From positions 248,001 to 312,000 of the forward strand of contig JAHCAI010000003.1 in NCBI GenBank assembly GCA_019634975.1: DNA of 64,000 nt, given 5' to 3'. The position numbers were made by a program, and so were the translations under genes. The notes below the pieces were generated by a model. That model made no database searches, was not told the DNA's origin, and was given only the letters and a program-made list of their open reading frames with translations. Positions 5,379-10,209 of the stretch are shown here, piece after piece. Source of the DNA: Burkholderiales bacterium (lineage in GTDB: Bacteria; Pseudomonadota; Gammaproteobacteria; Burkholderiales; SG8-41). Every line of letters starts with the position of its first letter. Position 1 is the first letter of the stretch.

Positions 5379-6104
5379 TCATGTTCCGGATTCCCGGTAC
5401 CTGCGGATGCGCTCCTTGAGTCCCGGGGTGCTCACGGAACGGGACAACTCGGCCATGTCTTCGGCGCGGCTGTCAGTGACCGTGCGGCGGTGCAGCGCCG
5501 CAGCGGCTGCCGGCGTCAGTGTATCGGCCGCGGTTTTTGCGTCTGCGATCAATGCCGGCCACTCCTCGCGCGCGGCGATGCGGGTCAGGAAGCCGTCGGC
5601 GAGCGCGGTGTCGGCGTCGAAGCTGCGCGAATGCGACAGGATGTCGCGTGCGCGGTCGGCGCCGATGCGCTGGACCAGCCTTCGGGTGCCGAGCACGACG
5701 CCGAAGCGCAGACCCGGCATGCGGAAGGTCGTGCCAGGCTCGGCGACGCGCAGGCCGCAACTGGCGACGAGGTCGGCGCCGGCGCCGAACACGCGGCCGT
5801 GGGCGAGCGCCAGCGTCTGGTGGGGGGCGTGGTAGAGCGCCTGCAGCAGCGTTTCGATGCGGATGAAGCGCAGTGCGAGATCGCCTTCGCTCTGTGCCTG
5901 CAGGTCGCTGAAGTCGAAGCCGGCGCAGAAATGCGGGCCAACGCCGTCGAGGATCAGCAGCCGGGTGCCGTCGGTGGCGGCGTATTCGACGGCATCGAGC
6001 AGGGCCTCCACCAGCGAGGCGGACAGCGCATTGGCCTTCTGCGGACGGTTCAGCGTCAGCCGGGTGACATGGCCGTCGTGGCTGCGCAGCAGTTCGTCGC
6101 TCAT
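5379..6104 (-). CDS. enoyl-CoA hydratase/isomerase family protein
   Basis: A 241-residue crotonase-fold protein. Family features are the N-terminal LTLNRPQKANALS, the first oxyanion-hole segment GPHFCAGFDFSDL (near 55-67) and the second glycine-rich oxyanion segment AHGRVFGAGADLVASC. The catalytic glutamates of true hydratases are not obvious, so another crotonase-type reaction is possible. At 241 residues it is slightly short for the family (about 255-265). It is expected to act on an acyl-CoA made by the neighbouring CoA-transferases. Confidence 0.8.
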   Translation of the reverse strand: MSDELLRSHDGHVTRLTLNRPQKANALSASLVEALLDAVEYAATDGTRLLILDGVGPHFCAGFDFSDLQAQSEGDLALRFIRIETLLQALYHAPHQTLALAHGRVFGAGADLVASCGLRVAEPGTTFRMPGLRFGVVLGTRRLVQRIGADRARDILSHSRSFDADTALADGFLTRIAAREEWPALIADAKTAADTLTPAAAAALHRRTVTDSRAEDMAELSRSVSTPGLKERIRRYRESGT

Positions 6105-6239: not shown

Positions 6240-6854
6240 TCAGCCCTTGATGCCCGCACGCACTTCCGCCGAGCGATCCCAGAAATTCGGCAGCGCCGGG
6301 CTCGAATAGCCGGAGACGAAGGGTTTGTCGGCGCCGGTCGCCGGATCGAAGACGTGGCGTTTCACCGCGCCGATGTTGGCACCGTAGACGTGGATGCTGA
6401 TCGACGGCTGGTCGGCGAGCGCGTTCGATACTTCGTGGATGTCGCCCACCGTCGGCGACACGCGGTCGACCTGGCCCGGCAGCAGCCTTTCGGTTTCGCC
6501 GGCCGCCATCGGCTGGCCGGGTGTCGTGTGCGAGAAGCGCCGCGCGTTCTCGGCGCCGCGCATCATGCCGACCAGGCCCCACACGGTGTGGTCGTGCACC
6601 GGCGTTTTCTGGCCGGGGCCCCACACGAAGCTGACCACCGAGAAACGCTCCAGCGGGTCGCAGTGGAGCAGGTACTGCTGGTAGAACTGCGGATGCGGCT
6701 GCGCGCATTCGTCGGGCAGCCAGTCGTCGTGCTTGATCAGCTCGCCGAGCAGGCGGCCGCCTTCCTCGTGCATGGTCTTTTCGTCATTTCCGCTGCGTTC
6801 GACGAGGCGGGTCATCGCGGCGATGAATTGGCGGAAGCGTTCGGTGTTTTTCAT
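6240..6854 (-). CDS. cysteine-dioxygenase-like cupin (thiol dioxygenase family)
   Basis: A 204-residue single-domain cupin. The three iron ligands of the thiol dioxygenase family are visible: His87 and His89 in PVHDHT and His140 in GDIHEV. The start at ATG 6854 (MKNTERF) is chosen because it overlaps the stop of the upstream CaiB-type gene (ATGA overlap 6851-6854), which implies translational coupling. A longer frame upstream is a shadow of that gene. The family oxidises cysteine or 3-mercaptopropionate to sulfinates. Its link to an acyl-CoA operon suggests a thiol acid substrate, but this is inference. Confidence 0.78.
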   Translation of the reverse strand: MKNTERFRQFIAAMTRLVERSGNDEKTMHEEGGRLLGELIKHDDWLPDECAQPHPQFYQQYLLHCDPLERFSVVSFVWGPGQKTPVHDHTVWGLVGMMRGAENARRFSHTTPGQPMAAGETERLLPGQVDRVSPTVGDIHEVSNALADQPSISIHVYGANIGAVKRHVFDPATGADKPFVSGYSSPALPNFWDRSAEVRAGIKG

Positions 6855-7993
6855 GTTCTGTCCTTGAGTTCTGCGAGCACTTCGGCGGTATGGGCGCCGA
6901 GCGCCGGCGGCCCACGGCGCACGCCGAGGCGCTGTCCGGAGACGCGCTGCGGCGAAACGACCGTCCTGCTGGCGACGCCGTTGGGCAGCGCCAGATCCTC
7001 GACCCATTGCATGTGTTTGACCTGCGGGTCGGCCAGCACCTGCGAATAATTGTACAGCGGCGCGCAGGGCACGCCGCGCGCGTTCATCCGCGCCAGCAGG
7101 TCAGCGGCGTCGTATTTGACGAACTCGGCCTCGAGCAGCTCGCGCAGCGCGTCCTGGTGCTGGGCGCGCAGCGTCGGCGAGGCGAAGCGCGCATCCTGCG
7201 TCAGGTCGTGTCTCGCGATCGCGTCGCAGGCGGCCTGCCACAGCTTGTTGGTGCCGGCGGCCAGCGCGAAATAGCCGTCGCGGCAGCAGAAGGCGGCGTA
7301 GGGCGCGTTCATCGGGTGCGCGGAGCCCAGCCGCACCGGGTCGCGGCCGGTGCCGAACAGTTCGCTGGTCTGCAGGTTGGCAATGCCGAGCATGCTGCCC
7401 AGCATCGACACATCGATGTAATCGCCCTGTCCGGTGGCGCGCGCCTTGTGCAGGGCCGCGGCGGTGCTGAACGCGGCGTAGAGGCCGGCGGAAAAGTCCG
7501 CGATCGGGATGCCGCATTTCGCGGGGCGCCCGTCGCGCTCGCCGGTAACGCTCATGACGCCGCTCATCGCCTGCACCGTCATGTCGAAGCCGCCCTCGGC
7601 GGCGCGCGGGCCGGTCTGGCCGAAGGCGGAGACCGAGCAGTAGACCAGCGCGGGATGTTCCTTTGCCAGCGTCGGGTAGTCGAGGCCGAATTTCGCCATC
7701 ACGCCGGGGCGGAAATTCTCGAGCAGGATGTCGGCCGACAGTGCGAGGCGGCGCGCGTCGGCGCGGCCGGACTCGCTCTTGAGGTCGAGCACGACCGAAC
7801 GCTTGTTGCGGTTGACCGAGGCGAAATACTGGCTGTATCCATCGAGGATCGGTGGCCACTGCCGCATCAGGTCGCCCTCGGGCGCTTCGACCTTGATCAC
7901 ATCCGCGCCCATGTCGGCGAGCAGGCAGCCGGCAAAGGGGCCGGCCAGCACCTGGCAGAACTCGACGACGCGTATGCCTTGTAGCGGAAGCAT
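6851..7993 (-). CDS. CaiB/BaiF-type class III CoA-transferase
   Basis: A 380-residue family III CoA-transferase. It has the typical opening LQGIRVVEFCQVLAGPFAG, the CoA-binding neighbourhood GADVIKVEAPEGD (29-41) and NRNKRSVVLDL (61-71), and the probable catalytic Asp166 in PIADFSAG. It is close to the usual family length (about 390-400). These enzymes move CoA between carboxylic acids through an aspartyl-CoA thioester. The start is the ATG at 7993; the ribosome site is weak. It overlaps the cupin gene by four bases. It sits with a second, unrelated two-subunit CoA-transferase. Confidence 0.88.
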   Translation of the reverse strand: MLPLQGIRVVEFCQVLAGPFAGCLLADMGADVIKVEAPEGDLMRQWPPILDGYSQYFASVNRNKRSVVLDLKSESGRADARRLALSADILLENFRPGVMAKFGLDYPTLAKEHPALVYCSVSAFGQTGPRAAEGGFDMTVQAMSGVMSVTGERDGRPAKCGIPIADFSAGLYAAFSTAAALHKARATGQGDYIDVSMLGSMLGIANLQTSELFGTGRDPVRLGSAHPMNAPYAAFCCRDGYFALAAGTNKLWQAACDAIARHDLTQDARFASPTLRAQHQDALRELLEAEFVKYDAADLLARMNARGVPCAPLYNYSQVLADPQVKHMQWVEDLALPNGVASRTVVSPQRVSGQRLGVRRGPPALGAHTAEVLAELKDRT

Positions 7994-8078
7994 CAGGAAT
8001 TGCGCTGGATTGGAGGTTTCGCCGCGCAGGAAAAATGCGCGCGGAAGAGGTCTTATGCTAACACGCGGACCGCGGTAC

Positions 8079-8807
8079 TCAGCCGTCGATCGCCGCGGAA
8101 AAACGGCCGCCCGCGTCGAGCGCGGCCAGCGCATCCAGTTCGCGCGCGCTGGCCGGCGTTGCCGGCTTCGCTGCCGTCGCGTCGAAGCTGAAGCCGGTGC
8201 GCGCAGCGATGTCGGCCACCGTGACTGCCGGATTGAAGCGGGCAAGGTGGAAGCGGGCCCCTGCGCGCGGTTCGCGCTCGAAGACCGCCAGCGGCGTCAC
8301 CAGCGCCGTCATGTGGCCCGATGCAGTGATGAAGTCGAGCTTGTCGACCAGCGCCCGCGGCGTGTGGTCATTGCGCCAGGTGACGACACGCTTCGCGGTG
8401 GGCAGCATCACCGCGGCGCCGCCGCCGCCGGGCAGCCTGACTTTCGGATTCTCCCAGGAGCCGATTGCCGAAACATTGGTGCGGCCCTCGGCGTCGATCT
8501 GCGCGCAGCCGAGGAAGACCAGGTCGAGTCCGCCGCGCGCGCAGAGATCGTAGAAATCCTGGTTGGCGAAAATTGCCGGCGAGCCGTGGACGATCGCCGG
8601 GTCGCTGCTCGACAGCGGCACCTTCACGGGCTGCGGTTCGACGCCGCCGGCGACGTTGATCCAGGTGAAGTCAAAATCACAGGCGCGCTTGGCGAGCAGG
8701 CAGGCGAGCATCGGCAGCGTCGAGTTGACGCCGCTGAAGCTGATCTCGCCGGCGCGGATCTGGCGCGCAAGGTGAATGACGATGAAGGAGAAGGGCGTCC
8801 AGTCCAT
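8079..8807 (-). CDS. CoA-transferase subunit beta (glutaconate/IpdB-like, class I)
   Basis: A 242-residue protein of the class I CoA-transferase beta fold. It has NSTLPMLACLLAKR near the N-terminus, the central FLGCAQIDAEGRTNVS and the glycine-rich loop RLPGGGGAA. I see no clear ESG-type catalytic glutamate as in glutaconate CoA-transferase, so an IpdB-like ring-opening hydrolase role is equally possible. Its partner alpha subunit is upstream but separated by a DNA glycosylase gene, which is unusual because alpha and beta are normally adjacent. There is an 85 bp gap to the CaiB-type gene. Confidence 0.8.
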   Translation of the reverse strand: MDWTPFSFIVIHLARQIRAGEISFSGVNSTLPMLACLLAKRACDFDFTWINVAGGVEPQPVKVPLSSSDPAIVHGSPAIFANQDFYDLCARGGLDLVFLGCAQIDAEGRTNVSAIGSWENPKVRLPGGGGAAVMLPTAKRVVTWRNDHTPRALVDKLDFITASGHMTALVTPLAVFEREPRAGARFHLARFNPAVTVADIAARTGFSFDATAAKPATPASARELDALAALDAGGRFSAAIDG

Positions 8808-8850: not shown

Positions 8851-8884
8851 TTTATAAGTATTTGATTTTATTTATATTTTTATA
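8851..8884 (-). repeat. AT-rich recurrent motif, copy A
   Basis: On the minus strand this reads AATAAAATCAAATACTT after an A/T run. It overlaps the glycosylase stop codon and precedes the CoA-transferase beta gene. It shares its core with seven other sites in the window. Confidence 0.6.
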
Positions 8885-9416
8885 ATGCACGCAAGACGGC
8901 ACGCCAGGCCGTGAGCTTGCGCCGATAGTCGAGAGCGGCATGCGCCGGGCTCGTCGACGGCAGGCGCTGCAGGCGCAGTGCACCGGCTTCCAGCGCCGGC
9001 TGCACATGGATGCGGAAGCAGCGCTCGGCGGTGGCGCCATTGAAAAACACGTGTGTGATGCGCGGGTGGCGTGCGAAAAAGGCCGGCAGGTCGTTGGTGA
9101 TGATGGAGTCGGGGTCGATGTCGGCATCGAGGCTGCCCTCCCGCACGCAGGCGGCCAGCACATCCCACAGCGCGATGCCCGCAGCCTGCAGCTGCCGGAC
9201 GCGCGCGGGATAGGCGAGTTCGGGCGCTGCGCCGACCAGATCGCCCATGATGCGCCAGAAGGCGTTGCGCGGATGGGCATAGTACTGGCCGGCACGCAGC
9301 GATTCGACACCGGGCATGCTGCCGAGTACCAGCACGCGTGCGGCAGCATCGGCGAGCGGCGCGAAGCTGCGCACGGCGGCGGGGCGCTCAGCGCGGTGCC
9401 GCGATTTCCGGTGCAT
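8880..9416 (-). CDS. DNA glycosylase of the uracil/hypoxanthine-DNA glycosylase superfamily
   Basis: A 178-residue protein with the UDG-superfamily motif VLVLGSMPGVESL near residue 26 and the family 6 marker YYAHPRNAFWRIMGDL. The C-terminal motif is SPAHAA (LPSTSPAHAALDY), matching the second active-site loop. These enzymes remove deaminated bases such as hypoxanthine or uracil from DNA. The start at ATG 9416 (MHRKSRHRAE) overlaps the end of the CoA-transferase alpha C-terminal frame by 29 bp. A repair gene between two CoA-transferase subunit genes is odd and suggests an insertion into a catabolic operon. Confidence 0.8.
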   Translation of the reverse strand: MHRKSRHRAERPAAVRSFAPLADAAARVLVLGSMPGVESLRAGQYYAHPRNAFWRIMGDLVGAAPELAYPARVRQLQAAGIALWDVLAACVREGSLDADIDPDSIITNDLPAFFARHPRITHVFFNGATAERCFRIHVQPALEAGALRLQRLPSTSPAHAALDYRRKLTAWRAVLRAL

Positions 9417-10209
9417 CGGCAAGATGGCTTTCCAGCACGCCGGGGCGGTCTTCCATGTAGCGTTCGACCGCCGGATAGTCGATGTCGTAGTACGGGTGCA
9501 TCGAACCCGGCCAGGCGCCCTGCGGCACAATGGCCGCAGCCTCGACCATGAAACCCGGCACCAGCGTCAGCTCGGGTTGTTCGCGCAGGCGGTCGGTGGC
9601 CACACGTTTTTCGGCGGTGACCAGCACGCGTTTGGCCGCGCGGGTCAGCGGGTGGTCCCAGAACGGCGAGCCGTAGACGCGGGCGTTGCCCTCGTCGTCG
9701 ATTTCGGCGGCATGGATTACCGCGATGTCCGGATGCACGGCGGGAATCACATAAACTTCGCTGCCCGAGCCGTAGGGATCGACAATGGTTTTCCAGCCAT
9801 TGATGCGTGCCAGCTCGCTGCCATGCACGCCGGCTACCGGCTGGAAGGGGATTCCGTAGGAGGCTGCACGCAGCCCCGCGACCAGGGTCATTCAGGCGTG
9901 TTCCTCGAGCTGCGCGGTCTTGCGTTCGATCGCCCTGCGGTACCAGCGGGCAAGACCGAAGTTGCCTTCCATTGCGACGATGCCGGCACGCACCCTGGCG
10001 ACCGCGCCGGCACGGCACAGCAGGTCGAGGTCATAGCCGGGGGAAGGCTTGATGATCTCGAGGTTCCTGCGCCCCTGCCTGGCCAGCTCGCGCACCAGTG
10101 CGAAAGGCCCGCGATGCAGGAACACGCCGCCGAGGCCGAGTGCCGCCCCATCGGGAATGAGTCCGGCCAGTGCGGACAGGCTGACGATTTTCGGGGACGC
10201 GGTGCCCAT
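9388..10209 (-). pseudogene. CoA-transferase subunit alpha interrupted by an in-frame TGA
   Basis: Two parts in the same frame together make one class I CoA-transferase alpha subunit of about 273 residues. The N-terminal part (10209-9892) starts MGTASPKIV behind a GGAG ribosome site, has the glycine-rich LGLGGVFLHRGPFALV and ends QLEEHA. A TGA follows at 9894-9892, and the next codon is ATG (MTLVAGLRAAS), giving a 167-residue C-terminal part that ends at 9388. From memory, relatives read through this place with E-E-x-x-Cys-x-T-L. So the TGA is a nonsense mutation, a sequencing error, a split-gene restart (TGAATG coupling) or, less likely, a selenocysteine codon. Confidence 0.7.

Follow-up and report, generated by a model that had tools for sequence, protein, structure and literature searches.

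We conclude from sequence comparisons that the window, a 64,000-nucleotide stretch of a Burkholderiales genome (contig JAHCAI010000003.1, positions 248,001 to 312,000), encodes a member of a putative new selenoprotein family, with selenocysteine (Sec) at the predicted active site of an acyl-CoA enzyme resembling IpdAB and AibAB. The TGA at 9894–9892 would be decoded as Sec by the genome's own SelA, SelB, tRNA-Sec and SelD, directed by a hairpin 17–34 nt downstream. The product would be one selenoprotein of 273 residues, which as alpha subunit would form a heteromeric enzyme with the beta subunit encoded at 8079–8807. Sec106, placed at a helix start and in the position of IpdA Glu105, would most likely act as a selenolate nucleophile or as an acid/base in the C–C cleavage, hydrolysis or decarboxylation of an acyl-CoA, and close relatives would carry out the same chemistry with Cys. 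We assign a probability of roughly 0.9 to this explanation as a whole, that is, Sec decoding, a single selenoprotein and an IpdAB/AibAB-like acyl-CoA enzyme.

An in-frame TGA in the alpha subunit gene

The minus strand from 10209 to 9388 is a single frame whose sole internal stop is the TGA at 9894–9892, which joins two halves in the same frame, as the preliminary description had stated. The read-through product around this codon is RKTAQLEEHA-U-MTLVAGLRAASYG, and the terminal stop of the gene is TGA too (9390–9388). Read through, alpha scored 62.6 bits for Pfam CoA_trans (PF01144; gathering cut-off 23) with a match over residues 13–224, and PF01144 was also matched separately by either half. 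The features of the locus are collected in Table 1.

Table 1. Features of the alpha–beta locus in the window, and the loci of a second subfamily elsewhere.
Feature	Position	Strand	Basis or remark
Putative alpha subunit (273 residues, including predicted Sec106) of an enzyme with the class I CoA-transferase fold	9388..10209	-	Frame, orthologues, fold
In-frame TGA, predicted Sec106	9892..9894	-	TGA in full-length subfamily-1 orthologues, Cys in relatives, selABCD in genome
SECIS-like hairpin, GGGGCUG-CGUG-CAGCCUC	9860..9877	-	Core pairs kept, synonymous entropy, folding
Uracil-DNA-glycosylase-superfamily gene, start not fixed	8880..9410	-	Separates alpha from beta in this genus
Beta subunit (CoA_trans; closest to AibB among solved structures)	8079..8807	-	Asn51 where Gct has its catalytic Glu and AibB has Cys56
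Codon of beta Asn51, motif YINVAGG	8655..8657	-	Asn in every beta compared
ORF with CaiB/BaiF (family III) CoA-transferase	6851..8245	-	Homologue beside alpha–beta in most Cys loci too
Cysteine-dioxygenase-like protein	6240..6860	-	Neighbour in Sec genomes and some Cys genomes
Enoyl-CoA hydratase/isomerase	5379..6104	-	In most Cys loci a homologue immediately precedes alpha
Second-subfamily loci L133–L139, L145–L158, L183, L184	for example L135:553-1287		

Among 74 genomes of the same bacterial family that were searched, subfamily-1 orthologues were found at 75–90% identity, and each full-length one had exactly one stop, a TGA. This TGA was present in every full-length subfamily-1 orthologue, in 34 genomes of the family, and its position was identical in all orthologues fetched and aligned (LEEHA-U-(M/I)TLV(A/S)GLRAA). 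A scan of GTDB genomes was the source of further TGA orthologues, of an outlier at 69% identity that also has TGA (L084; EEHG-U-MTL) and of relatives with Cys. All 47 distinct relatives of 60–66% identity had Cys in the TGA column and no stop; they include Methylobacterium, Achromobacter, Bordetella, Cupriavidus, Paraburkholderia, Roseovarius and Vicinamibacteria. The family motif had been given in the preliminary description as E-E-x-x-Cys-x-T-L, and the alignment bore this out, with LEEHACxTL in homologues and Cys in the relatives at the position of the TGA. Among 369 genomes sampled from the class, no close relative was found beyond the source genome's own gene. Near relatives of the source genome are recorded as Burkholderiales or Betaproteobacteria metagenome-assembled genomes (MAGs). 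Four records titled Bordetella parapertussis or Chitinophaga pinensis (L046, L048, L060, L067) are MAGs inside the betaproteobacterial clade for the alpha gene, and the organism names on them look wrong.

Purifying selection was found on both halves of the gene, with dN/dS at 0.10 for the part upstream of the TGA and 0.17 for the part downstream, and not one of 33 distinct Sec genes had a further stop in the 99 codons after the TGA. The preliminary description had considered a nonsense mutation or an error the simplest explanation. TGC is one base change away from TGA, and the assembly has another damaged-looking gene (tuf), but the same TGA is shared by more than 30 independently assembled genomes that are distinct at species level, and the downstream part is selected and free of stops. 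The conservation across independent assemblies effectively excludes a nonsense mutation, a pseudogene or a sequencing or assembly error.

Selenocysteine machinery and the hairpin downstream of the TGA

The genes for Sec insertion that the preliminary description had suggested looking for, selA, selB, selC and selD, are all present in the source genome (3.37 Mb, 96% complete). Those for SelA (575 bits), SelB (429 bits) and tRNA-Sec (75.9 bits; also called by ARAGORN, anticodon TCA) lie close together on contig C12. The selD gene (420 bits) is on contig C3 (L141:252-1300) and, having its own TGA in the GGUGCK motif, encodes a selenoprotein itself. On C12, the EF-Tu gene (tuf; L124:1465-2632) is broken into several frames, probably through an assembly fault at a duplicated gene. 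Among the 35 genomes that carry the TGA form, tRNA-Sec was detected in 33, versus 28 of the 47 that carry the Cys form (Fisher p 0.0003, relatedness ignored), and the two TGA-form genomes in which none was detected are 79% and 86% complete. A Sec-type formate dehydrogenase was ruled out as the reason for the sel genes here, as no TGA lies inside any formate dehydrogenase match in the source genome; the Sec trait of this genome is thus unexplained by such an enzyme.

The hairpin at 9877–9860 starts 17 nt from the T of the TGA, and the GU of its loop lies 22 nt after the TGA. The preliminary description had noted a palindrome, GGCTGC-GT-GCAGCC, at 9875–9862, starting with the 17th nucleotide after the TGA, and had placed it roughly where a bacterial selenocysteine element would be. 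Both observations hold; the hairpin lies where a SECIS should, and its synonymous sites are frozen. The folding energy is −11.1 kcal/mol, with z-scores near zero against shuffled sequence for 45-nt stretches, which is not unusual for GC-rich sequence, and the case for the hairpin therefore rests on synonymous-site conservation. Across 33 distinct Sec genes, the synonymous entropy of codons +6 to +9 (GGG CTG CGT GCA) was 0.00. The mean synonymous codon entropy over codons +4 to +12 was 0.15 in the Sec genes, against 0.56 upstream, 0.58 downstream and 0.70 in 47 Cys genes. The core of 5 bp was kept in 33/33 Sec orthologues and was largely not formed in the Cys genes. The hairpin pairs hardly vary among the Sec genes, with too few differences for compensatory changes to show; in the outlier L084 the hairpin is kept with other bases (GGGCUGCG-GGC-CGCAGCCC), which is only suggestive as support from covariation. 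Taken at the level of synonymous sites, a SECIS-like stem-loop with GU in its loop appears to be conserved beyond the needs of the protein.

Together with the TGA/Cys pairing and selABCD, a stem-loop after the TGA is what alpha would share with bacterial selenoproteins that use a bacterial SECIS, such as FdhA, SelD and others; unlike these generally, alpha has no redox motif. The data point most directly to read-through as such, and UGA might be read as another amino acid by a suppressor tRNA or a reassigned code. This is highly improbable, as UGA serves this genome as an ordinary stop, including at the end of alpha, the homologues have Cys and not Trp, Gly or Arg, the Sec machinery is complete and the hairpin is at the expected SECIS place. 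Insertion of Sec at the TGA is, by contrast, very strongly favoured by the comparative evidence.

A second subfamily with TGA in the same column

Paralogues forming a second subfamily, with 30–33% identity to alpha, carry a TGA that aligns exactly with the one in alpha (DNT-U-GVL). They occur across several genera of this bacterial family, and two more families of the order also have them; a beta gene adjoins the alpha gene in this subfamily. Their hairpin (AGGCCC-AGGCU-GGGUCU) keeps its inner five pairs in 20/20 genes, its loop lies 22 nt after the TGA, and codons +6 to +10 had zero synonymous variation among the 20 compared. Relatives of the second subfamily at 35–42% identity have Cys at this place (DAT-C-PAI). 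In the tree, which was midpoint-rooted, each Sec group formed one clade adjoining its own Cys group (SH-aLRT 99); with such rooting the tree is compatible both with Sec gained at least twice from Cys and with Sec that was ancestral and lost repeatedly. Around one gene of the second subfamily (L183), genes for TctC-type solute-binding proteins were crowded, with seven matches in 16 kb.

The second subfamily bears on the explanation that the preliminary description had ranked next, a split gene with translational coupling, in which the TGA ends the N-terminal half, the ATG of TGAATG restarts the C-terminal half and the two chains assemble. An ATG does follow the TGA directly here, as it does in 28 of 33 orthologues, and the halves match PF01144 one by one. 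However, the other 5 of 33 have ATC or ATA directly after the TGA, and the second subfamily has GGG or GGC there, so that no restart is possible at that place. Several uninterrupted homologues have Met after the Cys (LEEHACMTL), and Met after Sec or Cys is therefore a feature of the protein. A break here would also separate a strand from the helix that continues it in the AlphaFold model, and it would leave the frozen hairpins and the pairing of TGA with Cys unexplained. No split homologue was found. We consider a coupled split gene very unlikely. The preliminary description was thus right to raise selenocysteine, though it had ranked it below both a nonsense mutation or error and a split gene.

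Enzyme identity and the role of residue 106

The beta subunit is nearest to AibB, and its Asn51 was placed by alignment to AibB Cys56, the residue that corresponds to the catalytic Glu of glutaconate CoA-transferases (PMC7756340). Asn (YINVAGG) occupies that place in this beta and in all beta homologues compared, which makes the canonical CoA-transfer mechanism unlikely. Despite its class I fold, the alpha–beta enzyme is therefore probably not a CoA-transferase. Foldseek matched the fold of alpha to 1poi, 5mzw and 6co9. Glutaconate CoA-transferase (GctAB; 1poi) is alike in fold and heteromeric organisation, and differs in that the beta Glu carrying CoA transfer is Asn here and that GctA has Ser in the Sec column. 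AibAB, a 3-methylglutaconyl-CoA decarboxylase (PDB 5mzw–5n03), is the solved structure closest in sequence to both subunits, and its beta subunit likewise lacks the CoA-transferase catalytic Glu; it differs in having Cys56 where beta has Asn51 and Gly where alpha would have Sec.

The same fold is found in IpdAB, a COCHEA-CoA hydrolase of steroid degradation (PDB 6co6, 6co9, 6coj, 6con), whose structures match alpha with TM 0.84–0.85, an rmsd of about 2.7 Å and 28% identity. Its beta subunit is weakly similar to this beta (E 5e-5). Single-sequence and profile alignments (about 28% identity) placed the Sec/Cys column of alpha at IpdA E105, a reactive residue, so that Glu in IpdA stands where alpha and its relatives have Sec or Cys. 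PDB entry 6coj is titled as an IpdAB E105A mutant in complex with COCHEA-CoA. IpdAB is said, in work by Crowe et al. in 2018, to open the last steroid ring hydrolytically, with E105 as the catalytic residue. In the AlphaFold model of alpha (pLDDT 87, pTM 0.88), strand 100–105 runs into helix 106–118, and we infer that Sec106 may cap this helix, a position that would favour a selenolate or thiolate.

The genes around alpha and beta point to acyl-CoA catabolism: a CaiB-type transferase, an enoyl-CoA hydratase, a zinc alcohol dehydrogenase and a cysteine-dioxygenase-like protein. Most Cys genomes have the genes arranged as CaiB, enoyl-CoA hydratase, alpha, beta. The N-terminal extension of the CaiB/BaiF ORF is probably spurious. 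Other genera, and Cys genomes too, have alpha and beta side by side, without the uracil-DNA-glycosylase-superfamily gene between them, and the function of that gene is probably unrelated to theirs. The Asn of beta, the alignment with IpdA E105, the position at the helix and these neighbours led us to propose that the enzyme acts on an acyl-CoA as a C–C cleaving hydrolase, a lyase or a decarboxylase, and this reaction class is the more tentative part of the proposal. That Sec106 is directly catalytic appears fairly likely.

Sec might instead be inserted for a structural or redox-regulatory role, as a redox switch, while the chemistry takes place elsewhere, as in AibAB with its Gly. Neither AibA (Gly) nor GctA (Ser) has an acidic or thiol residue in this column, so that a catalytic role of this position does not extend to all relatives; redox enzymes make up the majority of selenoproteins (PMC13188914), and a selenol could undergo reversible oxidation. 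On the other hand, the column aligns with the very residue of IpdA chosen for mutation in 6coj, there is no resolving CxxU or UxxC motif, and the homologues compared have Cys or Sec there and, in rare cases, His. A structural or redox role is accordingly an unlikely alternative, if one of some weight, to the catalytic role favoured here. Further paralogues in the same family have His (EWSHM; L142, L144) or Cys (EGACQP; L143) in the Sec column, which thus varies among chemically reactive residues.

No NCBIfam model fitting alpha scored above its cut-off. A class I CoA-transferase-fold selenoprotein is absent from the 119 prokaryotic selenoprotein families tabulated in a 2026 review (PMC13188914), a table that includes the families of Haft and Tolstoy 2025 and lists no class I CoA-transferase. 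A literature search combining selenoprotein or selenocysteine with CoA-transferase returned nothing relevant; the unvalidated candidates of Deng et al. 2026 from groundwater MAGs may include it. Annotation that reads TGA as a stop alone will split or discard such genes in many genomes. Matched Sec and Cys enzymes occur in two separate paralogous clades, and the question of selenium versus sulfur can therefore be tested by enzyme kinetics. If the explanation is true, Sec at the reactive position of a C–C cleaving or hydrolytic acyl-CoA enzyme would widen the known uses of selenium. The odds seem even that the two paralogous clades use Sec, in place of Cys or the Glu105 of IpdA, for non-redox acyl-CoA chemistry, and that they may thereby sustain the Sec trait in a lineage in which the one member examined lacks a Sec-type formate dehydrogenase.
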